From: Micromonospora sp. NBC_00421
Lineage (GTDB): Bacteria; Actinomycetota; Actinomycetes; Mycobacteriales; Micromonosporaceae
Assembly (NCBI RefSeq): GCF_036017915.1
Contig: NZ_CP107929.1
Span: 620,001 to 684,000, forward strand
Direction: 5' to 3'
Length of the DNA stretch: 64,000 nucleotides
Of the stretch, positions 28,473-43,260 are shown piece by piece. Position numbers and translations under genes: made by a program. Numbering within the stretch: position 1 is the stretch's first letter; every line of letters begins with the position of its first letter. Under the pieces are notes generated by a model. The model made no database searches. It was given only the letters and a program-made list of their open reading frames with translations, and was not told the DNA's origin.

Positions 28473-28473
28473 G

Positions 28474-29434: not shown

Positions 29435-29764
29435 TCACGCCGTGGGCAGCGGACCCAGACGGGCCGGATGCACCAGCCGCAGCCGCTCCACCCCGCCCAC
29501 CGTCTCCGGCACCAGGTAGCCGCCCAGCTTCAACTCACGCACCATCTCCGCCACCGGCGGATCGTTCGGGTGCCCCCGTTCCGCCAACACCGAACCGGGG
29601 ATCACCTCGCCGAGATCGTGGCTGAGCAGGAACACGACCAGGCCAACCGTCGGGTACTCGGGGTACAGGTCTTTCAGCCAAATCTGCGGTACGTGGGTGT
29701 TCTCGCCGTCGCGGGGCACGTCCACATCGCACACGATGTCCAGAAGCTCACTGCTGTCGGTCAT
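29435..29764 (-). CDS. hypothetical protein downstream of Rep-like gene
   Basis: 109 residues, AAGGAGAG upstream. VPQIWLKDLYPEYPTVGLVV, FLLSHDLGEVIPGSVLAERG and PVAEMVRELKLGGYLVPETV suggest a winged-helix fold. Cotranscribed with the HTH/Rep-like gene 29788-30558. Confidence 0.7.
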   Translation of the reverse strand: MTDSSELLDIVCDVDVPRDGENTHVPQIWLKDLYPEYPTVGLVVFLLSHDLGEVIPGSVLAERGHPNDPPVAEMVRELKLGGYLVPETVGGVERLRLVHPARLGPLPTA

Positions 29765-29787
29765 GATCGCTCTCCTTCAAGGTGGGG

Positions 29788-30558
29788 TTACTCGGGGGAC
29801 AAGCCTTCGTTGTCCAGCCAGTCCAAGACGCCAGTACGCGGGTTCTCTTCGTGGATCTTCTCCAGGTAGCGGCCAGGCCACTTGATGGACGGGGTGCGGT
29901 TGACGCGAAACGCCCGGTACCACAGGTCAGCGGTCCAGGTGCCCTCCGGCCAGCGAGAGCCCTTGCCGCCCTCGCAGGTCAGCTTCTCACCAACAATGGA
30001 GCGGAACAGGGCACGGTCCTCGTCACGCCAGTTGCCAGACGATCCGTCGTAGCCGCCGGCAGGTTCCGGATCGCCGTCGTCAGCTTCGGTGTCGCCTCCG
30101 CCGCCTTCGCTTGCGAAGGTGGGGCAGGACAGATCAGGAGCATCTTCTACTACGGTTCTTCGGTCTAGTTCTTCTATAGAACGGCCTTCACCATCCGACG
30201 GGATACCGTCCGACGGTTTGGGACTTATGGTCCGACCTGCGGAAATGTCAACCAGGTGTGGCTGCGACACGTCGTAGAAGACGTGCTCCCAGCCGATCCG
30301 GCCGTCGTCGCCCCTGACGCGCTTCCGCTCCAGGTATCCGGCCTTCTCCAGCTCGTTGAGTGCCCGGCGGATCGTCTTGATGCCCTCACCCTTGACGGTG
30401 CTGGCGGCCAGGCTTTCGGCGGTGATCCGCCAGTTGTCGGGCCGAGACACCACGTCGCTGAGGATGCCTCGGGCTACGTAGCTGATCCGCTTGTCGCGGG
30501 CGACCGCGTTGCGGAGGATGAAGAAGTCTCGGGTGGGTAGCGGAGATCGCTTGATCAC
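29788..30558 (-). CDS. HTH replication-protein-like protein
   Basis: 256 residues from GTG 30558 (GAGGTGG). N-terminal winged helix of the HTH_36 class at about 10-85: FFILRNAVARDKRISYVARG, DNWRITAESLAASTVKGEGI, KTIRRALNELEKAGYLERKR. A long acidic Ser/Gly linker (about 110-180) leads to a C-terminal region (DRALFRSIVGEKLTCEGG; LWYRAFRVNRTPSIKWPGRY) reminiscent of phage replication-initiator C-termini. A short divergent transcript unit lies directly upstream, in the position of a plasmid copy-control RNA. Role in replication is inferred. Confidence 0.7.
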   Translation of the reverse strand: MIKRSPLPTRDFFILRNAVARDKRISYVARGILSDVVSRPDNWRITAESLAASTVKGEGIKTIRRALNELEKAGYLERKRVRGDDGRIGWEHVFYDVSQPHLVDISAGRTISPKPSDGIPSDGEGRSIEELDRRTVVEDAPDLSCPTFASEGGGGDTEADDGDPEPAGGYDGSSGNWRDEDRALFRSIVGEKLTCEGGKGSRWPEGTWTADLWYRAFRVNRTPSIKWPGRYLEKIHEENPRTGVLDWLDNEGLSPE

Positions 30559-30604
30559 GGGGCCACCTCGCCGCTGCGGCGGGTGTCTCGTGGCATGCCT
30601 GGTA

Positions 30605-30719
30605 TCCGCACACCAGTGCGGACGGGATACACTCGTACCCTCATCGTGGGTCGCCTCCTAGCGGCGATCAAGGGGCCGGATTCCAGGCGTTGGCGCGCCT
30701 GCCGGCCCCGTCTTCTTTT
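30605..30719 (+). ncRNA. candidate small RNA or leader peptide unit
   Basis: TACACT -10 box (30628-30633) preceded by an inverted repeat TCCGCAC-ACCA-GTGCGGA (30605-30622), and about 75 bases later a terminator: GGGGCCGG (30672-30679)/CCGGCCCC (30702-30709) with inner CAGGCG/CGCCTG, then GTCTTCTTTT. The predicted transcript starts near a GTG at 30645, so a leaderless short peptide cannot be excluded. It diverges from the Rep-like gene at 30558. Confidence 0.5.
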
Positions 30720-30794
30720 GTGCCTCCATCCTACCGTGTGTCCGGATCATGCCGGCCGACGGCGACGCTGGTGGGGCACGCATACCCTCACCCC

Positions 30795-31322
30795 GTGGAC
30801 ACCCAGAACCTCGTTACCCTCGGCGTCGCCCTTCTCGCAGCAGCAACAGCCGTATGGGTTCCCACCTGGACCTTCAAGCGGACCCTCGAACTGGAACACG
30901 TCAAGTGGATGCGCGACCAACGGTCACAGCTCTACATCGACATGCTCACCGAGGCGTACGCCGAGAAGCAGTGGCACCTCCACCTCATGACCGAGCATGA
31001 ACTTCACCTCATCGGCACCCGCGACGGCGACGAACCCCGCGTACCCCGCACCGAACTCCCGCCCCCTCCAAACCTGCGGCTCGGCGACGTCGAGAGAGCG
31101 CGGCTCGGTGCCCGAAGTGCCGCATTCGCCAGCGGCAGAGTGATTGCGGCGTTCAACGCCTTCAACGGCGTCCTCGCCCGGACTTCACTGCTTCCGCCGA
31201 GGACTGAGGGCGATGCCCACATGGCGAAGATCCGTGCAGACGAACTGTTCGCCGCGCTGGAGAAGGCGATTCGCGATGAACTGGGCGCGACCAAGCCCGA
31301 CCTGCCCGCGCAGCGACACTAG
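30795..31322 (+). CDS. single-pass membrane protein with cytoplasmic helical domain
   Basis: 175 residues from GTG 30795, no clear ribosome binding site and possibly leaderless. One N-terminal transmembrane segment (NLVTLGVALLAAATAVWVPT), then WTFKRTLELEHVKWMRDQRS and long helices (FASGRVIAAFNAFNGVLART; ADELFAALEKAIRDELGA). Resembles small actinomycete proteins with a TM anchor and an antiparallel helical cytoplasmic part. Function unknown. Confidence 0.7.
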   Translation: MDTQNLVTLGVALLAAATAVWVPTWTFKRTLELEHVKWMRDQRSQLYIDMLTEAYAEKQWHLHLMTEHELHLIGTRDGDEPRVPRTELPPPPNLRLGDVERARLGARSAAFASGRVIAAFNAFNGVLARTSLLPPRTEGDAHMAKIRADELFAALEKAIRDELGATKPDLPAQRH

Positions 31323-31337
31323 ATCGTCCTGCACGAC

Positions 31338-31370
31338 GAAGCCCCGGCCGGTCACCCGGTCCGGGGCTTC
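31338..31370. terminator. bidirectional terminator
   Basis: GAAGCCCCGG (31338-31347) and CCGGGGCTTC (31361-31370), placed between the converging genes 30795-31322 and 31391-32155, so it serves both. Confidence 0.85.
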
Positions 31371-31390
31371 ATCGTCTGCGGCGCGGGCGA

Positions 31391-32155
31391 CTACAGGTCG
31401 ATCTCGTACTCCAGGCGCACCCCGTCACCCGGATACACAATCTCCCGGGCCACCTCCACCACCCGGTCACCGGCGTACATCTGCCGGGTGATCGCCAGCA
31501 CCGGACCCGACGGCATGCGCAGCACCTCCGCCTCACGGGCTGTCGGCATCCGCGACTCCACCGTCTCCACCACCCGCGTCACCCGCACCCCCAACGACCG
31601 CAGGTGTCCGATCGCCCCGCCCTGCGCCGGCTCCGACCCCGGCCCGGCGACCGATGTGCCGGCCACCATCTCCGCCAGGTAGTACGACGTCGACATGTGG
31701 GTTGGCCAGCCGTTCAGGCGGAACACCAGATCACGGCGCACCAGGCCCGTGCCCGGGTCGACGTCGAACAGTTCGGCGACCTCCGGTGACGCAGGCTCCG
31801 TCGTGATCACCGCATCCGGGTTGTGCTGGTCAAACCGAATCCCGTAGTCGTGCGTCACCGATGTCTGCGGGTTCTCCGGGGTGGACTCGACGTCGGCGCG
31901 GTAGCGGGATGACGCCACCCGGACCGGCTTGAGGCGGGGCCGCACGAACGAGCCTCGGCTTTTGATGGTGTGAATGCGCCCCTGCTCCCGCAGCACCGCC
32001 AGCGCCTGCCGGGCAGTGTTCCTGGCGACCCCGAACTCGGCCTGAATCTCCTTGTCGGAAGGGAACGGCATGCCGTTGCCGAGGATGCCCGCGTCGATGC
32101 GCCGCCCGAGCTCGTCTGCGATCTGGGCGTATCTGGGGCGGGGGTCGGCAGCCAT
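31391..32155 (-). CDS. GntR/HutC repressor, KorSA type
   Basis: 254 residues from ATG 32155. N-terminal GntR winged helix (YAQIADELGRRIDAGILGNG, FPSDKEIQAEFGVARNTARQ, ALAVLREQGRIHTIKSRGSF) and a complete C-terminal UTRA domain (GTGLVRRDLVFRLNGWPTHM; STSYYLAEMVAGTSVAGPGS; PVLAITRQMYAGDRVVEVAR). KorSA/KorA proteins of actinomycete conjugative elements have this architecture and repress the kil-override tra and spd genes. It diverges from the DUF2637 gene, and two direct CCTGTATrGACAC sites lie between them. Confidence 0.85.
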   Translation of the reverse strand: MAADPRPRYAQIADELGRRIDAGILGNGMPFPSDKEIQAEFGVARNTARQALAVLREQGRIHTIKSRGSFVRPRLKPVRVASSRYRADVESTPENPQTSVTHDYGIRFDQHNPDAVITTEPASPEVAELFDVDPGTGLVRRDLVFRLNGWPTHMSTSYYLAEMVAGTSVAGPGSEPAQGGAIGHLRSLGVRVTRVVETVESRMPTAREAEVLRMPSGPVLAITRQMYAGDRVVEVAREIVYPGDGVRLEYEIDL

Positions 32156-32195
32156 GCAGGTCACCCTAGCTGCCGATCTTGCAAGTTTCGCATCA

Positions 32196-32258
32196 CCTGT
32201 ATGGACACGACATGAGAGTATCCCTGTATAGACACACCGGTCTAGTCAGGTGTACGTT
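32196..32258. promoter_or_regulatory. GntR operators and leaderless promoter of transfer cassette
   Basis: Direct repeats CCTGTATGGACAC (32196-32208) and CCTGTATAGACAC (32223-32235), 27 bases apart. The second covers a -35 box TAGACA (32229-32234); an 18-base spacer leads to TACGTT (32253-32258), and the GTG of the DUF2637 gene is at 32266, about where transcription should start, so the mRNA is probably leaderless. Confidence 0.7.
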
Positions 32259-32265
32259 ATGACCC

Positions 32266-34170
32266 GTGACCAACCACGCGACCCTCGCCCTCATCCCCGA
32301 CCCGGGAGAGCCGGACCAGTGGCACGTACCCGCCCCGGTCAACGGCGGCTGGCTCGCCGACATCACCGCGTGGGCCGACACCATCCCCGGCTGGTCCTGG
32401 GCCGCAGCCCTCACCACCCTCACCCTCTTCACCGTCATCTCCCTACCCTGGGCACGCGCACAGGCATACAAAGCAGGACGACGCACCGCCGGCACCACCA
32501 CCGACACCAAAGGCCGGGCACTGTTCATCGCCGCCATGGTCCCCGCCGCGTTCTTCTGGCTCGCCGTCCTCGCCGGCAGCTTCCGGGGCCTCGCCGCATT
32601 CGGCCGCGACACCCTCCACTGGGCCGACGGGTGGGAATACCTCGTCCCCCTCACCCTCGACGGCATCGCCATCAGCTTCGGGTTCCTCGCCTTCCGGGCA
32701 GTCCGCTCCCACCGGTCACCCGACCGGGCAGTCCACGTCGCCACCGGTGCAGCCGTCGCATCCGCCCTCATCAACTACGCGCACGAAGTCAGCGTCGGCG
32801 GCTCATGGGTGGGCGGCGGCTACCTCGCCCTGCTGTCCATCCTCGGCCTGCTGATCTTCCACGAGTTCCTCGACCAGTTCACCGAAGGCACCGCCTACAT
32901 CCAGCGGGTCAACCCCAAGTTCGGGCTGCGGTGGCTCACCTGGCCGTCGAACACGGTGTGCGCGTGGATCGCCTGGCGCAACTACCCGCCCCTGCCACTG
33001 CCGTCCAACCCGACCGACGGGCAGAAGCGGTGGTGGGGGTCCATCAACCACGCCGTCGCCCACCTCAACACGGTGCGCCGTGCCAAGCGCATCGCCCGCC
33101 ACACCGTCGACCTCAACCAGAAGCGACACACCATCCACCCGCTGCTGGCCACCATCCCCCCAGTCCGGCAGCTCGTTGCCACCCTCACCGCCCAGAGTGC
33201 GGAGATGGCGGAGATGTCCGCCCGCCTCGACCAGGTTGCCGCCGGCTACGAGGCGGAGAAGCTGCGGGCTGCCGCTGCGGAGAACCGGGCGGAGACCGAA
33301 CGGCAGCGCGCCGACAACGCTGTCGACGCCCAGACCATCGCCGAAGCGGAGACCGTGGAAGCCCACCGTCGGGCGGAGAAGCTGCGCGGCGAAATGGAGG
33401 CGGAGATGACCCGCCTGCGGGCGGAGACCACCAACACCATCCACCGCACCGAGTCCATCGCCGACCGGCGGGTCACCACCGCGCAGGCGGAGAAGGACCA
33501 AGCCCTCGCCCGCATCGACCAGCTGGAGCAGCAGTGGATTGAGGCGAAGCAGGAAGCGGCTGTCTCCGCCGAACGTCTCTCCGCCGCACAGACCGAAACC
33601 GTCTCCGCTCTCCGCTCCGCAGAGCAGGCGGAGAAGGAAGCCGCATCCCTCCGCTCCACCCTCACCCAGGTTGCGGAGAAGCACACCGCCGAACTGGCGG
33701 AGACCACCGCACGGTTCCGGGTGGAGATGGCGGAGAACGAGGCACGCCTTCGGGCGGAGATGAGCACGGTGAACCTCTCCACCTGGCGGAGTGAAAGCCG
33801 CAGCGGAGAGCGGAGGAAGCCCACCACCGGGCAGCGGGGCAAGCCTGCGGAGAACCGCAGCGGAGCCTCCAACCAGCCGCGCATGAGCGACGGAGAAGCA
33901 GTTCAGGCGCTTCTCCGCGCCCACCCCGAACCCGACTACGAGTGGAAGCAGACGGAGGTGCAGGCGATCACCGGAGCAGGCTTCGGTCGGATCCCCCGGC
34001 TGATCTCCGCCGTCGCGGAGCACCACCGGGCCGCCGTCGCGGAGAACCACTCCGGTATCGCACGGAGCGCCGACGCGGAGCGGAGCGGAGACGCCACCAG
34101 CCCGGAGACCACTCCGATCGGAGAGGACACGGAGATTGCTCGAACCCCCGCGACTGTCGCTGCCGGCTGA
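32266..34170 (+). CDS. DUF2637 (Spd-type) membrane protein with coiled coil
   Basis: 634 residues. Residues about 45-210 form the DUF2637 membrane domain with four to five helices (SWAAALTTLTLFTVISLPWA; ALFIAAMVPAAFFWLAVLAG; YLVPLTLDGIAISFGFLAFR; GGYLALLSILGLLIFHEFLD). Residues about 305-510 are a long Ala/Glu/Arg coiled coil, and the C-terminus (RMSDGEAVQALLRAHPEPDY; ITGAGFGRIPRLISAVAEHH) is a winged-helix-like end. DUF2637/SpdB proteins spread plasmids between septal compartments of mycelium after TraB-mediated transfer. The coding DNA from 33199 on is crowded with GCGGAG hexamers in several frames. Confidence 0.85.
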   Translation: MTNHATLALIPDPGEPDQWHVPAPVNGGWLADITAWADTIPGWSWAAALTTLTLFTVISLPWARAQAYKAGRRTAGTTTDTKGRALFIAAMVPAAFFWLAVLAGSFRGLAAFGRDTLHWADGWEYLVPLTLDGIAISFGFLAFRAVRSHRSPDRAVHVATGAAVASALINYAHEVSVGGSWVGGGYLALLSILGLLIFHEFLDQFTEGTAYIQRVNPKFGLRWLTWPSNTVCAWIAWRNYPPLPLPSNPTDGQKRWWGSINHAVAHLNTVRRAKRIARHTVDLNQKRHTIHPLLATIPPVRQLVATLTAQSAEMAEMSARLDQVAAGYEAEKLRAAAAENRAETERQRADNAVDAQTIAEAETVEAHRRAEKLRGEMEAEMTRLRAETTNTIHRTESIADRRVTTAQAEKDQALARIDQLEQQWIEAKQEAAVSAERLSAAQTETVSALRSAEQAEKEAASLRSTLTQVAEKHTAELAETTARFRVEMAENEARLRAEMSTVNLSTWRSESRSGERRKPTTGQRGKPAENRSGASNQPRMSDGEAVQALLRAHPEPDYEWKQTEVQAITGAGFGRIPRLISAVAEHHRAAVAENHSGIARSADAERSGDATSPETTPIGEDTEIARTPATVAAG

Positions 34171-34328
34171 TCTGCGGAGTGACGCGGAGAAGTTGCTGTG
34201 GCTTCTCCGCTCCGCATGGAACGACGGACCGAAGTTGATCGAACGACCCGAACCGGAGGAGGACCCCGATGAGCACTGACACCGTCACCGCACCGCTGAC
34301 GACCCTCACCGAGGCGGAGGTTGCGGAG
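33199..34328. repeat. GCGGAG hexamer array, candidate transfer locus
   Basis: By hand I count about 29 GCGGAG on the plus strand and 10 CTCCGC in 1.13 kb, against roughly two expected at this base composition. Most plus copies encode Ala-Glu in the coiled coil, but six lie in other frames of the gene (33786, 33803, 33810, 33860, 34080, 34085), the CTCCGC copies fall across Ser-Ala codons, and four copies (34174, 34184, 34205, 34210) are beyond the stop. Actinomycete TraB translocases recognise clusters of short direct repeats (TRS) at the clt locus; this array sits in the same cassette. Confidence 0.55.
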
Positions 34329-34652
34329 ATCCGCAACAACCTGCCCGACGTCCACATCTACTTCGACGAGCCCGACACCCCGACCGTCCTCGACGAGGTG
34401 CACATCCACCGCGACCGCACCCAGGACGCCTACGACGCGTCCGTTATCGGCGCTGGCCTCATCGGCACCGCCGCCGCGTTCGCCCACGCCTACAGCCCGT
34501 ACGTCCTGCTCAACAACACCCTCATCGGACTCACCGTCGCCCTGGTCTTCACCGCGATGCTGCTGCGCTGGGCGGTCACCCGGGAGGGCCGCAAGTGGGT
34601 GTACGCCGACACCGACGAACCCTGCGACCCGAACCCCGCCCCAGCTGTCTGA
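34269..34652 (+). CDS. two-pass membrane protein of transfer cassette
   Basis: 127 residues from ATG 34269 with GGAGGAGG. Polar N-terminus, then two helices (VIGAGLIGTAAAFAHAYSPY; LLNNTLIGLTVALVFTAMLL). A 24-codon frame (34198-34272) ending in an ATGA overlap with this start may couple translation. Spd-like small membrane proteins occupy this place in plasmid cassettes. Confidence 0.75.
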   Translation: MSTDTVTAPLTTLTEAEVAEIRNNLPDVHIYFDEPDTPTVLDEVHIHRDRTQDAYDASVIGAGLIGTAAAFAHAYSPYVLLNNTLIGLTVALVFTAMLLRWAVTREGRKWVYADTDEPCDPNPAPAV

Positions 34653-34683
34653 CCAGCGCAAACACGAGGAATTCGAGATCAAC

Positions 34684-34953
34684 ATGGCATCGAAAATCTA
34701 CGAGATCACCGTCTACAAAGACCGCCGGGAGGTACGCGACATGCAGCCGTTCCTCACCAGCGTCGACCTCGAAGACGGGGACACGACCGCCGACACCCTC
34801 AACCGGCACCTGCTCGGGGCGGTGCTGCGGGCCAACGCCCACCGCTCCGACGTGCACCGCTTCCACCTGGAAGCCCGCGACGTGGACCGGGACGGCAAGG
34901 GACGCGGTTCGGTGCTGTGGCGGTGGGCGATGCCCGCAGGGGAGGGCGTGTGA
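34684..34953 (+). CDS. hypothetical protein of transfer cassette
   Basis: 89 residues from ATG 34684 (SKIYEITVYKDRREVRDMQP; LNRHLLGAVLRANAHRSDVH; FHLEARDVDRDGKGRGSVLW). Alpha/beta, soluble. Overlaps the next start as TGATG. Function unknown. Confidence 0.7.
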   Translation: MASKIYEITVYKDRREVRDMQPFLTSVDLEDGDTTADTLNRHLLGAVLRANAHRSDVHRFHLEARDVDRDGKGRGSVLWRWAMPAGEGV

Positions 34954-35171
34954 TGGCCGGCAGGGCCAGGAAACCCGAGGTCAACCGGCATGCGTGGCAT
35001 GAGGCGAGGGTTGCCGAAGCCCGCACCCCGAAGGAGAAGTTGTGGGCGCTGTGCCACTGGCTGGTGGCGGAGGCGTTCCACGCCGGACCCGACCAGTTGC
35101 AGGCCGCCACCGACATGGTGCGGGGCCGTATCACCGAACTGGCTGAGGCCAGGAAGGAGGCCACCCGATGA
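34953..35171 (+). CDS. hypothetical helical protein of transfer cassette
   Basis: 72 residues from ATG 34953. Basic start (MAGRARKPEVNRHAWHEARV), helices EKLWALCHWLVAEAFHAGPD and DMVRGRITELAEARKEAT. Followed by an ATGA overlap. Not recognised. Confidence 0.65.
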   Translation: MAGRARKPEVNRHAWHEARVAEARTPKEKLWALCHWLVAEAFHAGPDQLQAATDMVRGRITELAEARKEATR

Positions 35172-35602
35172 CGACGACTGTCACCGAGCGTGAAATTCGA
35201 TCCCCTATCAACGGGCGGGTGCCCCGCCTGGACAGCCCGCCCGCGCCCGCGCGCGCGGGCGCGAGATTACCGGTAACAGTCAGTGTTGGCAAGGTGTGGG
35301 GGTCGGTGTGCTCCGCATGCCGTGATTGGTGGGCATGGACGGCCCGTCCCGCCACCCTCGCTGACCTGTGGGCGGCGTCCGCCGTCGACCCGAAGCGCAT
35401 CCCCACTAACAACACGGCGCTGCGTGTCGCGTGGCAGGTGTCCAACTGGACGGACCGGCTGCTCATGTTCGCCGCCATCGCCGCCGCACCCACGCTCGCC
35501 ACCGGCCCGCTGCGGTGGCTCGCCGCACGCCCCACCCGCCGGTGGGCGTTCTACCTCATCACGGCGGCACTCACCGCCACCTACACCCTCGGAAAGGGGT
35601 GA
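35168..35602 (+). CDS. membrane protein of transfer cassette
   Basis: 144 residues. A polar Arg/Pro-rich N-terminus, then VWGSVCSACRDWWAWTARPA and two membrane helices (WTDRLLMFAAIAAAPTLATG; RRWAFYLITAALTATYTLGK). Resembles small integral membrane proteins of the Spd group. Two adjacent DNA palindromes (35242-35276) lie inside its coding sequence. Confidence 0.7.
   Translation: MTTTVTEREIRSPINGRVPRLDSPPAPARAGARLPVTVSVGKVWGSVCSACRDWWAWTARPATLADLWAASAVDPKRIPTNNTALRVAWQVSNWTDRLLMFAAIAAAPTLATGPLRWLAARPTRRWAFYLITAALTATYTLGKG
35242..35276. repeat. 22-bp GC palindrome next to TTACCGGTAA palindrome
   Basis: A perfect 22-base palindrome of alternating C and G runs (35242-35263, arms CGCGCCCGCGC) is followed four bases later by TTACCGGTAA (35267-35276). 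It could extrude as a cruciform or mark a protein site; it encodes Pro/Ala/Arg residues in the gene at 35168. Confidence 0.6.
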
Positions 35603-35605
35603 CCC

Positions 35606-35998
35606 ATGTTCAACGTCGGAGCCGGTGTCGGCCTCATCATCATCGCCCTGTCCGCCCAGTACCTGATCGCCAAGCGGCTCAAGCACCAGAAGGTGTCCAA
35701 GTTCTACAGCTGGGTCGCCTGGGTGTTCGCCGTCCTCGGCGGTGTCGCCGTCACCGGTGACCTCGGTGACGCCGTCGGTGTCACCGCCGGTGGTGCCGCC
35801 ATTGCCTCCATCGTCGGCCTGCTGTTCATCGGTGTGGACATCGCCGACAAGCGGCCCGACTGGTTGGCGTTCGCGTTGATCATCGTCACGCCGACGATGA
35901 TGCGCGCCTCCGGCGGCACCCTCGGCACCATCTACGACGGAATCCTCATGCTGCCGGACTCGATCCTCGCCGGCATGCGCACCTTCCTGGGGATGTGA
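35606..35998 (+). CDS. three- to four-pass membrane protein of transfer cassette
   Basis: 130 residues with helices at about 3-22 (VGAGVGLIIIALSAQYLIAK), 34-50 (SWVAWVFAVLGGVAVTG), 58-80 (VTAGGAAIASIVGLLFIGVD) and 86-100 (WLAFALIIVTPTMM). Short polar loops. Likely part of the membrane assembly around the FtsK-like translocase. Confidence 0.75.
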   Translation: MFNVGAGVGLIIIALSAQYLIAKRLKHQKVSKFYSWVAWVFAVLGGVAVTGDLGDAVGVTAGGAAIASIVGLLFIGVDIADKRPDWLAFALIIVTPTMMRASGGTLGTIYDGILMLPDSILAGMRTFLGM

Positions 35999-36002
35999 CC
36001 GG

Positions 36003-36992
36003 GTGATCGATCCGATCTCCATCCTGGTGACCGTGTTAGCCCTGTACGGGCTGGCGAAACGGTCACCGCGTCTGCTCGGCGAGTTGGCTGAGGAGTGGCA
36101 GGCGGCCCGGCGGGGTGAGGAGTCCCCGTCGGCTGCCGCCCGCCGGCAGCGGCTCATCGCCAACGGCATCGACCCCACCACGGGCGGCCCGATGCGCCAG
36201 TACGTGGGTAACCGGTGGCGGGACTTCTGGCTCGACGAGGACCTGAAGGCCACCCGCCGCCGCGCCGAACGCCTCGACAAGGAAGCAGCCGGGGAGGTGC
36301 TGTCGTGGCGGGAGCGGATGGAGTCCCGCATGGATGACGAGGTGACCCGCCGCGCCGAGCAGTGGCGCACCCGCCCTGACGGCGACACCACCCCACCGGT
36401 GACGGTCACCGACATTCCCCGGCAGAACCCGGGCGGCAGCACCCCACCGCCCCAGCGTGACGGTCACACCAACCCCGGCTGGGCCTCCGACACCGTCCAC
36501 GACACCCCGCCCACCGGCGGCCCCGAACACACCAGCCCCCCGCCGCACGACACCCCGCCCACCGGCGGCCCCGACCGGGAACCCATCCGGGTCGACGTCA
36601 CCGTCGGCGAACCCACCCGCCCCACCAGCAGCCAGCCAACCGCCGAACCGGCAGCAATCACCGCAGGAGGAACCATGTCCAACACTGTCGCCCAGCAGGC
36701 CGTCACCGGTGTCGTGTCCGGTGCCGCCGAGGCACGCGCCATCGAAACCGCCCTCAACGCCGCCACCGAGGAGTATGTGACCCGCCTCAACCGGCTGCGG
36801 GGTCGCATCGCCCAGTTGGGGGAGCAGACCGTCGGCACCGTGCAGATGTCCGGACGGTCGCAGGTGGTGGCGAACATCGCCGCCGCCGCCGAAGCCGCCG
36901 CCGCCGCGCAGGCCAACGCCCGGTCGTGCACCACCGAAGTGGTGCCGCTGCTCGGCCAGGTGGCCCGAGCGTTCGAACGCATCAACAGCTGA
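36003..36992 (+). CDS. transfer-cassette protein with membrane anchor and Pro-rich linker
   Basis: 329 residues from GTG 36003. One hydrophobic N-terminal segment (PISILVTVLALYGLAKRSPR), a charged helical region (KATRRRAERLDKEAAGEVLS), a Thr/Pro/Gly linker with two copies of HDTPPTGGP (about 165-190), then a helical C-terminal domain (YVTRLNRLRGRIAQLGEQTV; QVVANIAAAAEAAAAAQANA) rich in Ala. Directly precedes the FtsK-like gene and may tether it. Confidence 0.7.
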   Translation: MIDPISILVTVLALYGLAKRSPRLLGELAEEWQAARRGEESPSAAARRQRLIANGIDPTTGGPMRQYVGNRWRDFWLDEDLKATRRRAERLDKEAAGEVLSWRERMESRMDDEVTRRAEQWRTRPDGDTTPPVTVTDIPRQNPGGSTPPPQRDGHTNPGWASDTVHDTPPTGGPEHTSPPPHDTPPTGGPDREPIRVDVTVGEPTRPTSSQPTAEPAAITAGGTMSNTVAQQAVTGVVSGAAEARAIETALNAATEEYVTRLNRLRGRIAQLGEQTVGTVQMSGRSQVVANIAAAAEAAAAAQANARSCTTEVVPLLGQVARAFERINS

Positions 36993-37021
36993 CCCCGCCC
37001 ACAACCCTCAAGGAGGACGCC

Positions 37022-39493
37022 ATGGCAGTGACGACGCACCGGCCGACGCCGCTGCCGCACAACGGCGGCAACCCGGCACCCGACTTCACCGGTGCCGCCC
37101 ACAGCAGGACCGCCCCCACGCCGGTGCCGGTGGGGGCGACCCGAATGCAGCCCTGGCACATTGACCCGGCCGATGACCGGCGCAAACGCATGCCGTACCC
37201 GGTGCCCGTCGACAACGACAACCACCGCACCCCACACGTGCTGCACCAGTGCCCGAAGATGCGCAACACCAACGGTGGTGGCAAGGAACGCTGCCCGGTC
37301 ACCGCGTGGATGCTGCCCGGCGAGCCGCGCCAGTTCTGCCAGCACCACGGCGAACCGCTGACCCCACCGAAGACGTCCACCGGGCTGGTCGACTTCTTCG
37401 CCGAGGTGCGGCGTCTGCACGGCCGTTCCGCTGCCGCATGGGCGCTGCCCGCCTCCGTCGTCACCGTCGACATGGCCGCCGCCGTCGCCCACCTGCCGGC
37501 CGCCGGGGTCGCCGCGTTCGCGCCGGCCGCCGCCGGGGCCACCTACCTGCACGTCAAGCGGACCCTCACCCGCCGCGCTGTCGCCCGCAACCGCATCGAG
37601 GTGGGGCAGCGCACCGGGAAACGTGTTCGCGCCATCCACCGTCAGGCGCAGCGGGCCGCGCTCACCGCCGGGGAAACCAGCCTGTGGGCTGCCGCGCTCG
37701 CCGCCACCGACATCACCACCCTCGCCGGTCAGATCGTCGCCGCGTTCGGCCTCGTCCGGTGGGCGGTCGGCGCATACCGCTGGTGGGCTGACGCCGACGC
37801 CCGCCGGGCAGCCCCCACCCCCATCACCATCGACACCGCCGCTGTCGTCGACACCCCACCAGTGGAGGCACCCAACCCAGTGCAACTGCACGCCGTCACC
37901 ACCTTCGCGACGCTCATCGGCTGCACCGGTGGCCCCCTCGCCGGCACCGAACTCGTCGACTGGAAACAGCTTCCCGCCTGCGACGTCGGCGCGAACATCC
38001 GCACCCGCCTACCCAACTGGACGGCGAAAGTCGTCGCGAAGATTCCCGGCTCCATCAACATGCGGGAGCAGCGCCCCCTGCTGCGCGGGCGGATCGCCGC
38101 CGCCTACGGATGCACCTACGCCGACGTGTCGTTCGCCGCCGACGAGTCGGACCTGTCCATCGGCTGGCTTCGCGTGCAGCCAGACAACGTGCTTGCCGAA
38201 ACGAAACTGTGGCCCGGCCCCGCCACGGCAGGCGAATGGAAGCGGGGACGGTCCCGCATCGGCCGCTACGACGACGGCGAAGACATTTGGTACCAGTGGT
38301 GGACGAAGACAGGTGCCGCCCACGACCTGATCTCCGGCTGCACCGGCTCCGGCAAGTCGGAACTGGTGGCGCAACTGCTGCTCGCTTCCCTCCACTCGCA
38401 GGGCCTGGTTCTCGACTGGGTTGGTGACCCGCAGGGCGGACAGTCGTACGGGGCGCTCAAGGACGCCGTCGACTGGTTCGCCCGTGACACCTCCGAGATT
38501 CGGTTCATGCTGCTGGCCGCACTCAAGGAGATGTTGCGCCGCAACGACGAACTGGCGGCAGCGAACATCAAGACGTGGCAGCCCACGAAGAAGATGCCGC
38601 TGCTGGTCATCACCTTGGATGAGGTGCAGTCGTACATCGACGACCCGATCATCCTGGAGTTGGTGGAGAAGCTGGTCGGGCAGGGCCGCAAGTGCGGCAT
38701 CAAGATGCGGCTGATCACCCAGATCCCCGCCGCGTACAACCTGGGCGGTTCCACGTACATCAAGGAGCAGTTGAAGGCCGGACAGACGTTGATCTTCCGG
38801 GCGATGACCGACATCGCCGGCCGTTCGGCGGTCGACGGGGACTGCCCCGTCGACCCGACGGAACTGCCCGACAGGTGGGGCAAGAACACGTGCGCGGCAG
38901 GCGACACCACCGCCGGCCTCATGTACGTGCAGGGCATCAACGGTCGCGACGTGTACGGCCGCGCCGACTACACCGGTGAGGACATGCGGGTGTGGTTGGT
39001 CGACGACGCCGGCCAGTCGACGCTCACCCCCGGCGTGTTTGGTTCGGAAGCGCAGCAGGAATCGGGGCCGCTGTGGGGTGACCGGAAGGAGCGGGCGGCG
39101 CTGCTGATTGCCGCCGGCCGCAACGACGCCGACCTGCTGTCCGGGGGGAAAGCCGTCGAGTTGTTGGAGGCCGCCGCTGTCACCCAGGTCACCCCGGCGT
39201 CGCTGCGGCCCACTCAGCCGAGCACGCAGCAGCAGGCGGCGGCACGGGTTGCCCGCGATGTGGTGCTTGAGGCCGCCCGGGAGAACGCCGACGGGCGGGG
39301 ACTTGTCACCAAGGAGCAGGTGGTGAAGGCGCTTGCCGCGATGGTGGAGCCGATGAAGGACGGCACCCGCGACAAGGCCCTCACCGACCTGGTGGCCGAC
39401 GGGAAGCTCCGCCGCGTCAAGAACGGCCTGTACGAGGTGCCCGGTGCTGCCGCCGCGCCTTCCCTTTTCGAGAGCACGGAGGCAGGCCAGTGA
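37022..39493 (+). CDS. FtsK/SpoIIIE-type DNA translocase (TraB/TraSA-like)
   Basis: 823 residues from ATG 37022 with AAGGAGG. Two membrane-like stretches near 150-190 and 225-260 (LWAAALAATDITTLAGQIVA). Walker A GCTGSGKSE at 439-447; LVLDWVGDPQGGQSYGALKD; Walker B LLVITLDEVQ at 527-536 (Asp533-Glu534); then KCGIKMRLITQIPAAYNLGG. The C-terminus (VTKEQVVKALAAMVEPMKDG; TDLVADGKLRRVKNGLYEVP) is a winged helix of the kind that reads recognition repeats. Actinomycete TraB proteins form hexameric pores that move double-stranded DNA between cells. In phages FtsK-like proteins are rare; the surrounding genes make transfer the best reading. Confidence 0.9.
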   Translation: MAVTTHRPTPLPHNGGNPAPDFTGAAHSRTAPTPVPVGATRMQPWHIDPADDRRKRMPYPVPVDNDNHRTPHVLHQCPKMRNTNGGGKERCPVTAWMLPGEPRQFCQHHGEPLTPPKTSTGLVDFFAEVRRLHGRSAAAWALPASVVTVDMAAAVAHLPAAGVAAFAPAAAGATYLHVKRTLTRRAVARNRIEVGQRTGKRVRAIHRQAQRAALTAGETSLWAAALAATDITTLAGQIVAAFGLVRWAVGAYRWWADADARRAAPTPITIDTAAVVDTPPVEAPNPVQLHAVTTFATLIGCTGGPLAGTELVDWKQLPACDVGANIRTRLPNWTAKVVAKIPGSINMREQRPLLRGRIAAAYGCTYADVSFAADESDLSIGWLRVQPDNVLAETKLWPGPATAGEWKRGRSRIGRYDDGEDIWYQWWTKTGAAHDLISGCTGSGKSELVAQLLLASLHSQGLVLDWVGDPQGGQSYGALKDAVDWFARDTSEIRFMLLAALKEMLRRNDELAAANIKTWQPTKKMPLLVITLDEVQSYIDDPIILELVEKLVGQGRKCGIKMRLITQIPAAYNLGGSTYIKEQLKAGQTLIFRAMTDIAGRSAVDGDCPVDPTELPDRWGKNTCAAGDTTAGLMYVQGINGRDVYGRADYTGEDMRVWLVDDAGQSTLTPGVFGSEAQQESGPLWGDRKERAALLIAAGRNDADLLSGGKAVELLEAAAVTQVTPASLRPTQPSTQQQAAARVARDVVLEAARENADGRGLVTKEQVVKALAAMVEPMKDGTRDKALTDLVADGKLRRVKNGLYEVPGAAAAPSLFESTEAGQ

Positions 39494-40146
39494 CCGCGAC
39501 TGCACAGCAGTACACCGACCGACGTGAGTGCGCCCTGTACCGGTTTTGGGTGCGCCACCCTGTCACCGGGAAGGTGGTGCTCGGGTACATCGGGGAAACC
39601 GGCCGGCTGCCGTTCGTGCGCCTCATGGAGCACGTCCTCGCGCAGCCGTGGGCGGACACGATCGTCCGCTGGGAAGTTGACCCCACCACCTACTGGGGTA
39701 AGCCGGCGGTGGAAGCAGCCGAGAAGACCGCCATCGAGCAGGAACGGCCCCTGTACAACGTCGAGCACAACATGGGCAACCCGGACCGGATCAAGCCGTG
39801 GGAGGCGGTGGCGCAGCGTCAGGCCCGGGAGCCTGGCTGGCAGCCGCCGGTGGTGAAGCCGAGGGTGCCGCACCCGCGCGGCGGTAGCCGTCAGCCCCGG
39901 AAGGCGCAGGTGCCGGAGTGGCGGCAGCGGGTGCAACTGTTCGGCCAGGTGGCCTACTGGCTGGGTGTGGTGTTGTTCGGCGGGTGGGTGACTGCTGTTG
40001 CCGCCTCCGGTCCGGTAGCCACCTGGGTTGACGGACTCGCCTACGGGATCGCGTTGCCGACGGTGCTGGTGTGCGCCCCGTGGCCTGCGATCCGCCGTCG
40101 TGCCGGTCGTGGGGTGCGCCGGTGGTGGCGTCGGGTGACCCGGTGA
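39490..40146 (+). CDS. membrane-anchored GIY-YIG nuclease-like protein
   Basis: 218 residues, GTG start overlapping the FtsK stop. GIY-YIG motifs ALYRFW (15-20) and GYIGETG (32-38), Arg44, then EAAEKTAIEQERPLYN with catalytic-type Glu and Asn90. A Pro/Arg linker leads to two C-terminal helices (VAYWLGVVLFGGWVTAVAAS; GLAYGIALPTVLVCAPWPAI). The nuclease motif AEKxAIExERPLxN is shared with the DnaB-N fusion at 14216. It may nick DNA at the transfer pore; inference. Confidence 0.8.
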   Translation: MTATAQQYTDRRECALYRFWVRHPVTGKVVLGYIGETGRLPFVRLMEHVLAQPWADTIVRWEVDPTTYWGKPAVEAAEKTAIEQERPLYNVEHNMGNPDRIKPWEAVAQRQAREPGWQPPVVKPRVPHPRGGSRQPRKAQVPEWRQRVQLFGQVAYWLGVVLFGGWVTAVAASGPVATWVDGLAYGIALPTVLVCAPWPAIRRRAGRGVRRWWRRVTR

Positions 40147-40523
40147 CCGGGGTGTGGGGGTGGCAGTTGCTGGGCAGGTCGGGGGAGATCCGCACCTACG
40201 GCACCGTCCACCTGTGGGGTGATTTGGACGAGCAGCATGAGCAGGCCCATCGGTGGGCTGCCGACCGCATGTGCGCCGAGCTGTGGCGTGTTGAGCCCCG
40301 GTGGGAGCGCCTGTCCGGGTGGCGGGTGCGGGTGTGGTCCGGGCAGCGGGAGGCGGTGGCCGAGGCGGAGGAATGGTTGGCGGTGCTGCGGGCGGGGCCG
40401 TTGGCTCGGGTGCGGGATCGGGTGGAACTGCTGTCCCGGCCGGTGGGGCGAAGCCTCGCCAAGGTTCATGCCCCTGAAGTAGGAAGGAACCGTGATGCCG
40501 TCACGCATACGAAGTCTGGTTGA
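40143..40523 (+). CDS. hypothetical Trp/Arg-rich protein
   Basis: 126 residues from GTG 40143 (GTGA overlap). VTGVWGWQLLGRSGEIRTYG, WRVEPRWERLSGWRVRVWSG and a helical tail. Overlaps the start of the XRE gene by 29 bases. Not recognised. Confidence 0.65.
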   Translation: MTGVWGWQLLGRSGEIRTYGTVHLWGDLDEQHEQAHRWAADRMCAELWRVEPRWERLSGWRVRVWSGQREAVAEAEEWLAVLRAGPLARVRDRVELLSRPVGRSLAKVHAPEVGRNRDAVTHTKSG

Positions 40524-41496
40524 CCCGCGCTTTCCGGCCACCCTCGCCCACCTGCGGGCCAGCCGGGGCATGTCCCTACGCGACCTCGCACGACAGATTC
40601 ACCGAGGCAAGAGCTACATCAGCGAACTGGAAACGAGCCGCACCCGACCGTCGGCCCTGGTGGCCGCCCAGCTCGACGATGCCCTGCAAGCCGGCGGCAC
40701 CCTCGCCGCCCTCGTCGTCGACCTGCCCCCCGTGGTGGCCGACGACGACGCCCGCATCACCCACAACCTGGGCCGCCCCCAACGGCTCGATGTCACCACC
40801 GTGGCGTTGCTCGCCGACCGGCTCGCCGAACAGCGACGCCTCGACGACCGGCTACCCGCCCCCATGCTGCTGCCCACCGCCGCCCGCCAGCATCACACCG
40901 TGCACCAGCTCGCCGGGCAGGCGCGCGGACCACACGCCGACGCGGTGCGGGAGGTGGCCGCCGAGTGGACCCAGTTCCTCGGCTGGCTGCACGCCGAAGC
41001 CCGCAACGACGCGCACGCCGTTCGGCTGCTGACCGAGGCCACCGACCAGGCCGACGCCATCAACCATGGGCCGCTCGCCGCACAAGCCAGCAACTTCCGG
41101 GGCTGGTTGGAACGGCAACGCGGCAACCCGCGCGGCATCGTCCGCCACTTTCTCGACGCGTACCACACCCCGGGGGCCAACACGCTGCAACGGGTGGGGG
41201 ATGCCATCCAGGCCGCCCACGGGTACGCCCTGCTCGATGACCGGGTGGAGGCCATGAGGTGGATGGGGGTCGCCAGTGACCTCACCACGGCGGCCGAAGC
41301 CGCAACCCCGCCGGTCACCGCCTACTGGCTGTCCCCGACGTTCCTGCGGCTGAACCTGGGCTTGGCGTTCACAGGGCTGGGTGATCCTGCGGCAGCCGCC
41401 GACAACCTGCGTGTCGGGCTTGCAGGGCTGCCGGCGGAGCATCAGAACGCCCCGTGGACGGTGGAGTATCGGATGGCACTGGCCGCACTGGAGTGA
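40495..41496 (+). CDS. XRE-family regulator with TPR-like C-terminus
   Basis: 333 residues from ATG 40495 (AGGAAGGA). HTH at about 15-75: TLAHLRASRGMSLRDLARQI, HRGKSYISELETSRTRPSAL. The remaining 250 residues are helical repeats (GWLHAEARNDAHAVRLLTEA; QASNFRGWLERQRGNPRGIV; WLSPTFLRLNLGLAFTGLGD) like the TPR sensors of Streptomyces XRE regulators. Last gene of the cassette. TTCCGGAC direct repeats and a TGTCGGTACCAG copy follow it. Confidence 0.85.
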   Translation: MPSRIRSLVDPRFPATLAHLRASRGMSLRDLARQIHRGKSYISELETSRTRPSALVAAQLDDALQAGGTLAALVVDLPPVVADDDARITHNLGRPQRLDVTTVALLADRLAEQRRLDDRLPAPMLLPTAARQHHTVHQLAGQARGPHADAVREVAAEWTQFLGWLHAEARNDAHAVRLLTEATDQADAINHGPLAAQASNFRGWLERQRGNPRGIVRHFLDAYHTPGANTLQRVGDAIQAAHGYALLDDRVEAMRWMGVASDLTTAAEAATPPVTAYWLSPTFLRLNLGLAFTGLGDPAAAADNLRVGLAGLPAEHQNAPWTVEYRMALAALE

Positions 41497-41504
41497 AAGA
41501 TAGT

Positions 41505-41578
41505 TTCCGGACAGGTTCCGGACGTGTTGGGGCCGCCTACCCGCCGGTCACCGGGCACGCTGAACATGTCGGTACCAG
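41505..41578 (+). promoter_or_regulatory. TTCCGGAC pair and TGTCGGTACCAG copy 3
   Basis: TTCCGGAC occurs at 41505-41512 and 41516-41523 (11-base period), and TGTCGGTACCAG at 41567-41578. 41497-41715 contains no gene. Likely a control region for the small genes that follow, bound by the XRE or GntR regulators. Confidence 0.45.
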
Positions 41579-41715
41579 CTGTTCTGCTGTTCCCGACGTG
41601 GAGAGGCGCAGCCCGCAGCAGGCCGGAGGCCGGTGCTGGTTGTAGCCGGAGCAGTGTGTGGTGCTCGCGGGGGTCCCCAGCCCCTCCGGGCACCACACCC
41701 CCGGAGGTGGTGGCG

Positions 41716-41889
41716 GTGGCGCACAGTACGCAGCCCGACGGCAACAGCCGCATCTGGGACCGCCTGCCACCTGACCCGTACGGCAACCCTGGGACGCACG
41801 CCCCCCTGTACCCGGATGAGCCGGCCATTATCGGCGGGTGCGCCGCCGCGAGGATCGCCCAGAATTTGCCGTGGCGGTGGCAGCGGTGA
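41716..41889 (+). CDS. hypothetical 57-residue protein
   Basis: GTG 41716 with GGAGG eight bases upstream. VAHSTQPDGNSRIWDRLPPD then YPDEPAIIGGCAAARIAQNL. Coupled to the next gene by GTGA. Confidence 0.55.
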   Translation: MAHSTQPDGNSRIWDRLPPDPYGNPGTHAPLYPDEPAIIGGCAAARIAQNLPWRWQR

Positions 41890-42149
41890 CCGCCGTGGAC
41901 CTGCCCGAGGTGCCGGCCGGAACCGTCATGCAGTTCGCCGCCGCCGACTGGTATCCGAGCCCCCGCCGGCACGCCGAACACGATGTGACCGTCGTGGTGG
42001 CCGCTGTGTACCGGCAGGAACTTGCCGGCCGAATCTGGGTGCGCGGGCATGTGTGCTCGTGGCATGAGCCGGACTGTGGCACGTCGGCGTGCTGGGAGTA
42101 CCAGGTGCACACGTCGGCGGTGCGCGCCCAGCTCGGCGGTGGCCGGTGA
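41886..42149 (+). CDS. hypothetical 87-residue protein
   Basis: GTG 41886 (GTGA). Strand-rich (GTVMQFAAADWYPSPRRHAE; VTVVVAAVYRQELAGRIWVR) with Cys residues in HVCSWHEPDCGTSACWEYQV. Probably a small beta barrel. Not recognised. Confidence 0.65.
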   Translation: MTAVDLPEVPAGTVMQFAAADWYPSPRRHAEHDVTVVVAAVYRQELAGRIWVRGHVCSWHEPDCGTSACWEYQVHTSAVRAQLGGGR

Positions 42150-42331
42150 CGGGCATGGTGGAGTCGGATGATCCGGCGGCGGTGTGGGTGGTGGCGCGGC
42201 TGGTGTTGGACTCGCATGCCCGAGGTGTGACCTGCCAGCGGTGCACGGCGGATGGATGCGATCAGGTGCCGTGGGCGGAGCGGATGGTCGAGTGGGGTCG
42301 GCGGGGTAGCCCGGGGGAGTGCCCAGCCTGA
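42146..42331 (+). CDS. hypothetical 61-residue Cys-containing protein
   Basis: GTG 42146 (GTGA). VWVVARLVLDSHARGVTCQR then CTADGCDQVPW; three cysteines. Followed directly by a terminator. Confidence 0.6.
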   Translation: MTGMVESDDPAAVWVVARLVLDSHARGVTCQRCTADGCDQVPWAERMVEWGRRGSPGECPA

Positions 42332-42339
42332 ACGCACGA

Positions 42340-42381
42340 CAACGCCCCACCCCCGGCGCGGGAGGTGGGGCGTTGTTCTTG
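42340..42381 (+). terminator. rho-independent terminator
   Basis: CAACGCCCCACC (42340-42351) and GGTGGGGCGTTG (42364-42375) followed by TTCTTG; ends the transfer cassette transcript. Confidence 0.85.
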
Positions 42382-42402
42382 TGGGTGAAGGAAAGCGTGT
42401 TC

Positions 42403-42612
42403 CTACTCTGGGTCGGGTTGGGTGTTCTGGGTGCGGGCCTTGTTTCGGGCGCGCCGGTCCAGCTCCCGGCGGATTGCCCGTTCGAGGAAGACGGCGAACT
42501 TCTCCCCGTCCTCTTTGGCTGCGTCGTGGGCCTCGTCCCATGTGGCTCCCATGCGGACGCTGCGGCCTTGGATTTGCCCTGTTGCCGGTCGCCCCGGCTT
42601 GCCGTCTGCCAT
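42403..42612 (-). CDS. ribbon-helix-helix-like repressor
   Basis: 69 residues from ATG 42612. GQIQGRSVRMGATWDEAHDA then KFAVFLERAIRRELDRRARN has the strand-helix-helix pattern of RHH proteins. No ribosome binding site, but TACATT lies seven bases before the ATG, so it is probably leaderless. Divergent from 42715; the palindrome CTTGTATTACAAG in between is its likely operator. Confidence 0.7.
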   Translation of the reverse strand: MADGKPGRPATGQIQGRSVRMGATWDEAHDAAKEDGEKFAVFLERAIRRELDRRARNKARTQNTQPDPE

Positions 42613-42647
42613 GCAGAAAATGTAGCACAAAAACTTGCCGTGAGCTG

Positions 42648-42687
42648 TTGTGGTCTACTGCCCGCCGTGCCATACTTGTATTACAAG
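42648..42687 (+). promoter_or_regulatory. promoter with CTTGTATTACAAG operator
   Basis: TTGTGG (42648-42653), 17 bases, CATACT (42671-42676). The perfect 13-base palindrome CTTGTATTACAAG (42675-42687) overlaps the -10 box and transcription start of gene 42715. Confidence 0.75.
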
Positions 42688-42714
42688 AAAGGCTAGCGAG
42701 CAGGGGAGACGGAA

Positions 42715-43209
42715 ATGGCGAACACCGACATCATCACCACCGCCCGGGAAATCCACACCACCGAGCAGCAGATCGCCGACGCCCGCACCGCCCGCAACCG
42801 CACCGACATCGCCCGCCTCAACCGGCAACACCGCAAGCTCACCGCCACCCTCCAGCAGATGACGATCGCCGCCCTCAACAACGGGGCCGACGCCGGCACC
42901 CTCCGCGCCCAGGTGTGGGCCGCCCTCGACGGCAAGGCCACCACCCCCGCCGACCTGGAGCAGGTCATCGTCGACACCATCCACCAACTGGCCGCCGAGC
43001 CCGACGCGTGGGTGTCCCTCACCCGCCTCCGCGCCGCCCTCCCCACCACCCACAACCGCGACGCTGTGGACACCGCCCTCCGCAACCTGGACCGCAAGCG
43101 TGCCGTCGACATCGCCCCCGAGGACAACATGCGGATGATGACCGAGGCGGACCACGCGGCAGCCCTGCGGCACGGCGGGCAGGACCGGCACCTGATCGCC
43201 ACCTGCTGA
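42715..43209 (+). CDS. hypothetical helical protein, tightly regulated
   Basis: 164 residues, CAGGGGAGA upstream. Helical N-terminus (IHTTEQQIADARTARNRTDI; RLNRQHRKLTATLQQMTIAA), then WVSLTRLRAALPTTHNRDAV and DTALRNLDRKRAVDIAPEDN, a winged-helix-like C-terminus. Own promoter, operator and terminator make it a stand-alone unit. Function unknown. Confidence 0.8.
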   Translation: MANTDIITTAREIHTTEQQIADARTARNRTDIARLNRQHRKLTATLQQMTIAALNNGADAGTLRAQVWAALDGKATTPADLEQVIVDTIHQLAAEPDAWVSLTRLRAALPTTHNRDAVDTALRNLDRKRAVDIAPEDNMRMMTEADHAAALRHGGQDRHLIATC

Positions 43210-43223
43210 CCCCAGGTACGCGA

Positions 43224-43260
43224 AACAGCCCCCACCCCGATCGGGGTGGGGGCTGTTGTC
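43224..43260 (+). terminator. rho-independent terminator (34-bp palindrome)
   Basis: AACAGCCCCCACCCCGA and its exact complement follow each other without spacer (43224-43257), then GTCT. Fifteen bases after the stop at 43209. Confidence 0.85.

Follow-up and report, generated by a model that had tools for sequence, protein, structure and literature searches.

A plasmid-type tra cassette with a GIY-YIG partner gene in an integrated prophage of Micromonospora sp. NBC_00421

Introduction

In the excerpts of the literature cited here, TraB is described as the sole plasmid protein needed for donor-to-recipient transfer in Streptomyces, along with 8-bp TRS repeats (PMC4170104), and as an FtsK-like translocase of double-stranded DNA (dsDNA) (PMC12857230), and the Spd proteins of plasmids are linked to intramycelial spread (PMC4170104, PMC12857230). 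Further excerpts state that transfer of pZL12 requires tra and two adjacent genes (PMC3583192), that pSLE1 was annotated after pZL12 (PMC4487206) and that actinomycete integrative and conjugative elements (AICEs) are defined by a Rep of their own (PMC3218068). Here we analyse a stretch of 64,000 nucleotides (the window; NZ_CP107929.1, 620,001–684,000) from Micromonospora sp. NBC_00421, in which a gntR-spd-tra cassette resembling those of conjugative plasmids lies within a tailed-phage genome integrated into the chromosome. An earlier note on this DNA had placed a kor-spd-tra cassette in a siphophage genome and suggested a phage-plasmid.

The terms FtsK, TraB and conjugat- are absent from the main text of a prophage survey covering 2,406 actinobacterial genomes (PMC10023795), and in the titles and abstract starts that we searched no integrated Micromonosporaceae prophage with tra was recognised, so that such elements can provisionally be called undescribed. 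Coordinates refer to the window unless marked as genome coordinates, which equal the window coordinate plus 620000.

Results and Discussion

The cassette consists of a repressor gene, a divergent proposed spd-tra operon (32266–40146) and a further regulator gene. Six virus contigs and five named genomes provided 11 related loci (L077–L087), and the gene-order counts given below cover nine of them (L077–L080 and L083–L087). Lengths are in amino acids (aa), and transmembrane (TM) segments were predicted by a hydropathy scan.

31391–32155, minus strand: GntR/UTRA (HutC-type) repressor, Kor-like (PF00392 46.6 bits, PF07702 63.8 bits)
32266–34170, plus strand: Spd-like membrane protein with DUF2637, 634 aa, three predicted TM segments (PF10935 26.2 bits, cut-off 22.8, residues 89–239)
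34269–34652, plus strand: 127-aa protein, one predicted TM segment
34684–34953, plus strand: 89-aa protein, no predicted TM segment; BLAST relatives in 5 of 9 loci
34953–35171, plus strand: 72-aa protein, no predicted TM segment; BLAST relatives in 9 of 9 loci
35168–35602, plus strand: 144-aa protein, start set by comparison with L077 and L078; BLAST relatives in 9 of 9 loci
35606–35998, plus strand: 130-aa membrane protein, two predicted TM segments; BLAST relatives in 7 of 9 loci, a same-sized gene at this place in the other two
36003–36992, plus strand: 329-aa protein with N-terminal TM segment; BLAST relatives in 9 of 9 loci
37022–39493, plus strand: TraB/FtsK-type dsDNA translocase (Tra), 823 aa, with C-terminal winged-helix-like region (profiles and model)
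39490–40146, plus strand: GIY-YIG nuclease-type protein (endonuclease PHROG) with C-terminal hydrophobic helix and basic tail
40495–41496, plus strand: XRE-type regulator (HTH_31)

We think it somewhat probable that an integrative temperate siphophage has its transfer module in this locus, which would serve a TraB-type transfer of dsDNA from cell to cell. The GntR repressor, the DUF2637 Spd protein, the FtsK-type translocase, the GIY-YIG gene and the XRE gene are all present where the earlier note had seen them. Its five small, mostly membrane proteins have to be corrected to six open reading frames (ORFs; 34269, 34684, 34953, 35168, 35606 and 36003), and as TM segments were predicted in only three of them (34269, 35606 and 36003) the wording 'mostly membrane' was too strong. 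The XRE gene was likewise counted as part of the cassette, but it gave no match at 1e-5 to the related prophages of genomes G130 and G121 and thus appears not to be a conserved part of it.

In its predicted structure Tra shows an FtsK-type motor fold with conserved nucleotide-binding motifs. The FtsK_SpoIIIE profile (PF01580) matched it weakly (20.7 bits, below the cut-off of 24), and several relatives carry a precomputed PF01580 annotation. The model also contains helices and strands at residues 744–805, with a weak AbiEi_4 match at 754–807 (E 0.022), and four long helices at residues 121–263, while no TM segment was found in Tra by the hydropathy scan. Against 72,556 plasmid records 108 matches were obtained, 91 of them from Streptomyces, with E values down to 2e-35 among the 20 matches listed and none spanning 80% of the query. 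The Tra profile aligned with TraB of pSN22 over columns 349–798 (E 2.9e-15), which includes the motor and the C-terminus, with the Tra of a phage-like plasmid from S. decoyicus over columns 278–801 (E 3e-17) and with pZL12.71c over columns 332–556 only (E 6.9e-6). By these alignments most of the Tra sequence has a homologous counterpart in pSN22 TraB, and together with the phage searches given below they place Tra nearer to the TraB proteins of plasmids than to the FtsK proteins of phages. The gene is under purifying selection, as the pairwise ratio of nonsynonymous to synonymous substitution (dN/dS) was 0.10–0.37 in 28 pairs from eight sequences (Nei-Gojobori, pS up to 0.49), a set in which L079–L081 are near-identical. 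A cluster of 8-bp repeats of the clt/TRS kind common to the cassettes of the window, G130 and G121 was not found; the remainder of the element was scanned in the window's copy alone.

A different reading of the same genes, which we consider unlikely, is that Tra and the Spd-like proteins only move phage DNA across the septa of one mycelium. Micromonospora grows as a mycelium, and the operon contains the DUF2637 Spd-like gene as well as further membrane proteins. Plasmid Spd proteins are tied to intramycelial spread in the cited excerpts (PMC4170104, PMC12857230), but there TraB alone is needed for donor-to-recipient transfer in Streptomyces (PMC4170104), and the homology of Tra spans both the motor and the C-terminal part.

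It is even less probable that the translocase works within the cell as part of the phage cycle, in segregation, concatemer handling or membrane anchoring, with no DNA leaving. FtsK-like proteins are indeed annotated in Streptomyces and Bacillus phages, an excerpt of PMC4569894 assigns the one of phage P1312 to segregation, and the nearest sequence match of Tra among solved structures is EccC. However, none of 50,697 phage records matched Tra at 1e-5, and of the 147 matches obtained at a limit of 10 the 20 listed cover only 17–26% of the query with E values no better than 5e-5, whereas plasmid TraB matches motor and C-terminus and gntR, spd and tra stand together here as they do in conjugative plasmids.

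Of 13 independent genomes or records, 12 have a GIY-YIG gene after the Tra gene. Y17, Y33, G35, R44, H48, E78 and N90 are invariant in ten GIY-YIG sequences, the others being 26–32% identical to the first, and we take these Tyr, Tyr, Gly, Arg, His, Glu and Asn residues to have catalytic roles at the canonical GIY-YIG places. Its structural model gave no Foldseek match at 0.001, and the alignment gave no match to PDB sequences at E ≤ 1. Three genes adjoining plasmid tra genes were compared with the GIY-YIG profile without a match, and the neighbour of the S. decoyicus tra gene showed no GIY-YIG domain by Pfam, a weak test, given that three members of the family studied here likewise escape Pfam.

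The repressor gene is divergent from the operon and encodes both an N-terminal GntR helix-turn-helix and a UTRA domain. Its orthologue in G130 is 79% identical, the divergent GntR of pSN22 29% (166 aligned columns), the GntR of pZL12 33% and a GntR-type gene of pMLP1 29%. Between gntR and spd lies a gap of 110 bp (32156–32265). Using GTMTAKAC, presumably the core of the HutC subfamily, as operator consensus, three candidate operators were found in it:

32199–32206, no strand assigned: candidate operator 1, GTATGGAC, one mismatch
32226–32233, no strand assigned: candidate operator 2, GTATAGAC, the sole exact match in the 109.6-kb element
32240–32247, no strand assigned: candidate operator 3, GTCTAGTC, one mismatch, not seen in the G130 gap

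The earlier note had counted two operators, but in this gap three candidates lie within one mismatch of the HutC-type core. The whole element (109,621 bp) contains 12 sites within one mismatch, three of them in the gap (32199, 32226 and 32240), a clustering with P ~1.2e-7 if the other nine are taken as background, which overstates the case because the motif was picked after the repeats had been seen. The G130 element (109,002 bp) has its single exact site, GTCTAGAC, in the equivalent gap, but of the 26 sites within one mismatch in that element this is the only one to lie there. Applied to the pSN22 gap and to 40 bases at pZL12, the same script detected no site of this type. The divergent gene differs among the relatives, being GntR in the window and G130 and a relative of another gene, G121_238395, in L087 (= G121), L078 and L080. 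Variation is found in this regulator and in the Spd-like gene, and the rest of the operon is conserved.

The earlier note had proposed to assemble the full replicon. This replicon (G000:C1) is a complete single-contig chromosome of 7,231,838 bases, and the 109.6-kb prophage extends beyond the window (G000:C1:620001–684000). A gene immediately to the left of the window (genome 617967–619463) encodes a 498-aa serine recombinase with Resolvase and Recombinase domains and a match to the phrog_95 integrase (9.5e-72). The left flank was searched in 40 relatives and loci were obtained from 19, all of the same genus; homology to them stops at ~617934–617936 (genome). Both flanks are joined in 15 of the 19 loci (BLAST back), the right flank resuming at ~727367, and four (L019, L023, L024 and L031) matched the left side only. 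The join lies inside the 3' part of a gene for a hydrolase of the MBL fold (genome 727367–728017, PF00753), of which ~189 bp are duplicated. The left copy is the original 3' end of the host gene, and the right one (genome 727367–727555) is a diverged version of the last part of the gene that came with the element and keeps the frame. As the element carries this copy, integration swaps the host 3' end without breaking the frame, and from the homology endpoints together with the duplication the prophage spans ~617935–727555 (109,621 bp). G130 carries a sister prophage at the same integration site. Beside this site lies a host gene (genome 615577–616434; L008:15577–16434) for which the Pfam scan gave no match. 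Related phages carry homologues of it in their lysis region (L078:19061–19933 and L098:514–1443, 69–71% to the G130 host copy), and it is perhaps a phage gene left beside attB.

The following phage genes were identified by PHROG matches within the element:

43618–44034, minus strand: holin of a convergent lysis module (phrog_9752, 3.3e-28)
46317–48437, minus strand: virion structural protein (phrog_37549, 1.5e-13)
49125–50252, minus strand: tail protein (phrog_1887, 7.5e-19)
50503–52545, minus strand: minor tail protein (phrog_11699, 2e-31)
53000–57139, minus strand: tail tape measure protein, 1379 aa (phrog_4197, 2.6e-135)
57897–58478, minus strand: major tail protein (phrog_117, 3.9e-12)
59897–60430, minus strand: head-tail connector (phrog_2322, 1e-13)
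genome 684424–685356: major head protein
genome 685858–688131: head maturation protease
genome 688668–690644: portal
genome 691501–693105: terminase large subunit
genome 701551–703206: primase/helicase
genome 708682–709815: sliding clamp
genome 716213–717139: RecT
genome 717136–718125: RecE

The earlier note had proposed to look for terminase and capsid genes to the right, and terminase, portal and major head protein are indeed located there in the same element. The tape measure protein, together with the absence of sheath or baseplate matches among the proteins scanned (part of the element's genes), fits a siphophage-type element. A megablast search of positions 25000–45000 against phage records gave no match.

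That the element is autonomous in the lysogen, as the term phage-plasmid of the earlier note implies, is very improbable. Similar Streptomyces elements, namely pZL12 with its ParA/ParB and a 93-kb S. decoyicus plasmid, are circular and extrachromosomal, but the present one sits between recognisable ends in a complete chromosome, into which a serine integrase has inserted it, relatives show the empty site and the sister prophage occupies the same one. Moreover, neither ParA/ParB nor plasmid Rep families were present among the 38 element ORFs scanned with Pfam, of ~180 called genes (one scanned ORF, 5371–6009, lies outside the called set), and the same ORFs gave no RepSA, RepAM or Prim-Pol initiator, RepSA being without a Pfam model in the list excerpted from PMC3218068.

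With Tra as query at least 92 relatives were found at E ≤ 0.001 among 7,995 candidates scored, 83 with at least 45% identity, the named organisms being Micromonospora, Verrucosispora, Dactylosporangium and (Par)Actinoplanes. Tra occurs at E ≤ 1e-60 in 8 of 354 genomes and 2 of 44 genera of the family; within the genus 93 of 160 genomes have an FtsK-type match at 0.001 and three, including the own genome, one of at least 70% identity. In Micromonospora and Paractinoplanes the transfer genes recur beside phage genes. Tra and the genes for proteins of 72, 98–144 and 316–429 aa stand in this order in all nine loci, which makes chance a less likely explanation. In seven of the 11 loci (L078, L080–L084 and L086) tra shares its contig with a phrog_2 terminase, at a distance of ~27–38 kb, the matches in L078 and L086 containing a stop codon. 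On the L077 contig a terminase (phrog_9) and a portal (phrog_104) were found, and on the L079 contig a minor tail protein (phrog_538); L085 has its phrog_2 match on a separate contig from tra and shares with L083 a phrog_5313 protein of unknown function. In L087 a terminase-sized protein resembles that of G130 at the N-terminus by eye and the phrog_2 search gave no match, but since the genome-wide phrog_2 search also missed the G130 terminase, which hmmscan finds at 4.6e-30, such misses are weak evidence. The cassette and the tailed-phage genes thus lie on one molecule, as the earlier note had claimed, in this complete chromosome, in the same arrangement in G130 and with virion genes on the tra contigs of other isolates.

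The recent insertion of an AICE-like module into one prophage, or a chimeric assembly, is hardly conceivable: an AICE-like gene set next to the G121 prophage shows that such elements are near, but Tra is followed by GIY-YIG in 12 of 13 cases, the operon order is kept in nine of nine loci and tra is constrained, and the chimera is ruled out by the single complete chromosome, by the same site and order in G130 and by the virion genes on other tra contigs. The set beside the G121 prophage (G121:C3:153000–166000, L070) comprises XRE, GntR, FtsK-type, Rep-sized and integrase-sized genes and looks AICE-like by size and sequence start only.

The G130 prophage is 72% identical in its integrase, 79% in GntR, 87% in RecE and 82% in RecT. 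From the cassette (genome 651391–660146) eight of ten genes match the G130 cassette and nine of ten the G121 cassette, the G121 match of the tenth, GntR, lying outside that cassette. In the virion region (genome 665375–693629) only two of 26 genes match G130 at 1e-5, one of these matches being short and outside the prophage, and one of 26 matches G121. The best terminase and portal families are phrog_38 and phrog_113 in the window, phrog_2 and phrog_10963 in G130 and phrog_9 and phrog_104 in L077, sets that are different but not wholly unrelated, as the window terminase also matches phrog_2 at 7e-8. At the level of gene matches this shows a transfer module that is kept while head and packaging genes change. 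A contig of 26.6 kb (G022:C23) with a 35% identical Tra (L093:13393–15657) and a gene 62% identical to the dCTP-deaminase-type gene of the element possibly represents another lineage of the same kind.

For the transfer module we propose the following model. In the lysogen the GntR/UTRA protein would occupy the sites in the 110-bp gap and keep the spd-tra operon (32266–40146) silent, and repression would be lifted upon excision of the prophage and its copying by the phage replisome. Tra may then build an FtsK-like hexamer at the membrane on the circular dsDNA, with its C-terminal winged helix recognising DNA identity, and together with the Spd-type membrane proteins could pump the dsDNA into a neighbouring hypha and across recipient septa, where the serine integrase would insert the element. 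The GIY-YIG protein might act at the membrane on DNA in transit, by resolving multimers or by cutting competing DNA. The virion route would exist alongside, and spread by both routes is plausible from the homology and the Streptomyces precedent pZL12. More tentatively, and with less confidence than in the transfer function itself, one may imagine a large integrative actinomycete phage lineage with a stable TraB-type module, an obligate membrane GIY-YIG nuclease and a swapped virion module, which would be prophage and integrative conjugative element at once and choose between particle and cell-to-cell dsDNA transfer; the nuclease would then be a new component of dsDNA conjugation.

Some further features of the element were observed. 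The palindrome CGGAA-N5-TTCCG occurs at 15211–15320 in three exact and one or two near copies at 19–22-bp steps, preceding an HTH_36 gene (15333–15947) and a DnaB-N and GIY-YIG gene (14216–15121). It is the sole non-coding repeat array found, ~17 kb left of the operon start, and is a candidate phage origin or operator. Five copies are present at the equivalent place in G121, and none were seen in 113 kb of host DNA, the G130 stretch or the L077 and G176 phage stretches examined. The L077 and G176 stretches have instead 16-bp repeats (L095:17962–18073) within a gene for 286 aa related to 29788–30558, reminiscent of iterons located inside a gene like lambda O. A TGTAGCTACA-type repeat is present three times (16385–16492) between the divergent genes 16164–16370 (minus strand) and 16620–17312 (plus strand), and its copies are candidate immunity operators. 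The element also encodes a Thg1-type (tRNA-His guanylyltransferase) homologue with both Thg1 domains (11539–12324; 78% identical copy in L095), a short GmrSD_N-type protein (26595–27191), a Bro-N/KilAC antirepressor (L011:1279–2097) and a C5 cytosine methylase (L110:8130–9932).

Conclusion

A conjugating plasmid-phage is already on record from Streptomyces with pZL12, and our analysis extends this idea to integrated prophages of the Micromonosporaceae. It also provides a conserved partner of the nuclease type for a transfer system in which one protein is generally said to suffice. If transfer does take place, surveys of actinomycete prophages would miss a route of conjugation, and the division between phages and integrative conjugative elements would fail for this lineage. 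As far as anatomy tells, the element works like a conjugating prophage, its membership in the AICEs or phage-plasmids not being established.

AICEs such as pSAM2, which carries a GntR regulator, are likewise chromosomal with a site-specific recombinase next to one end and an FtsK-type Tra, but the present element differs in its phage-type replication genes (primase/helicase, clamp and RecE/RecT), its virion genes and its size of ~110 kb. pSN22 (NC_001425.2) shares the gntR gene divergent from traA-traB, more small genes downstream and a homologous TraB; in contrast, it is a plasmid of 11 kb that has a Rep gene, and its record lists neither virion genes nor a GIY-YIG gene, no search aimed at the latter having been made. 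The 93-kb S. decoyicus plasmid (NZ_CP109340.1) has annotated terminase, major capsid, tape measure and FtsK-type Tra genes close together but is extrachromosomal, with an annotated regulator of another kind. pZL12/phage ZL12 (GQ919031) has phage-type genes as well, and its GntR gene is likewise oriented away from an operon in which an FtsK-type protein is encoded. It differs as a 90-kb circular plasmid with ParA/ParB, whereas a serine integrase has inserted the element of the window. The Tra of pZL12 is no more than a distant relative, and the gene that follows it gave no match to the GIY-YIG family. By this comparison we read the element as the integrative counterpart of pZL12, a temperate phage with a putatively repressed TraB-type system, in which the integrative form and the GIY-YIG partner are new.

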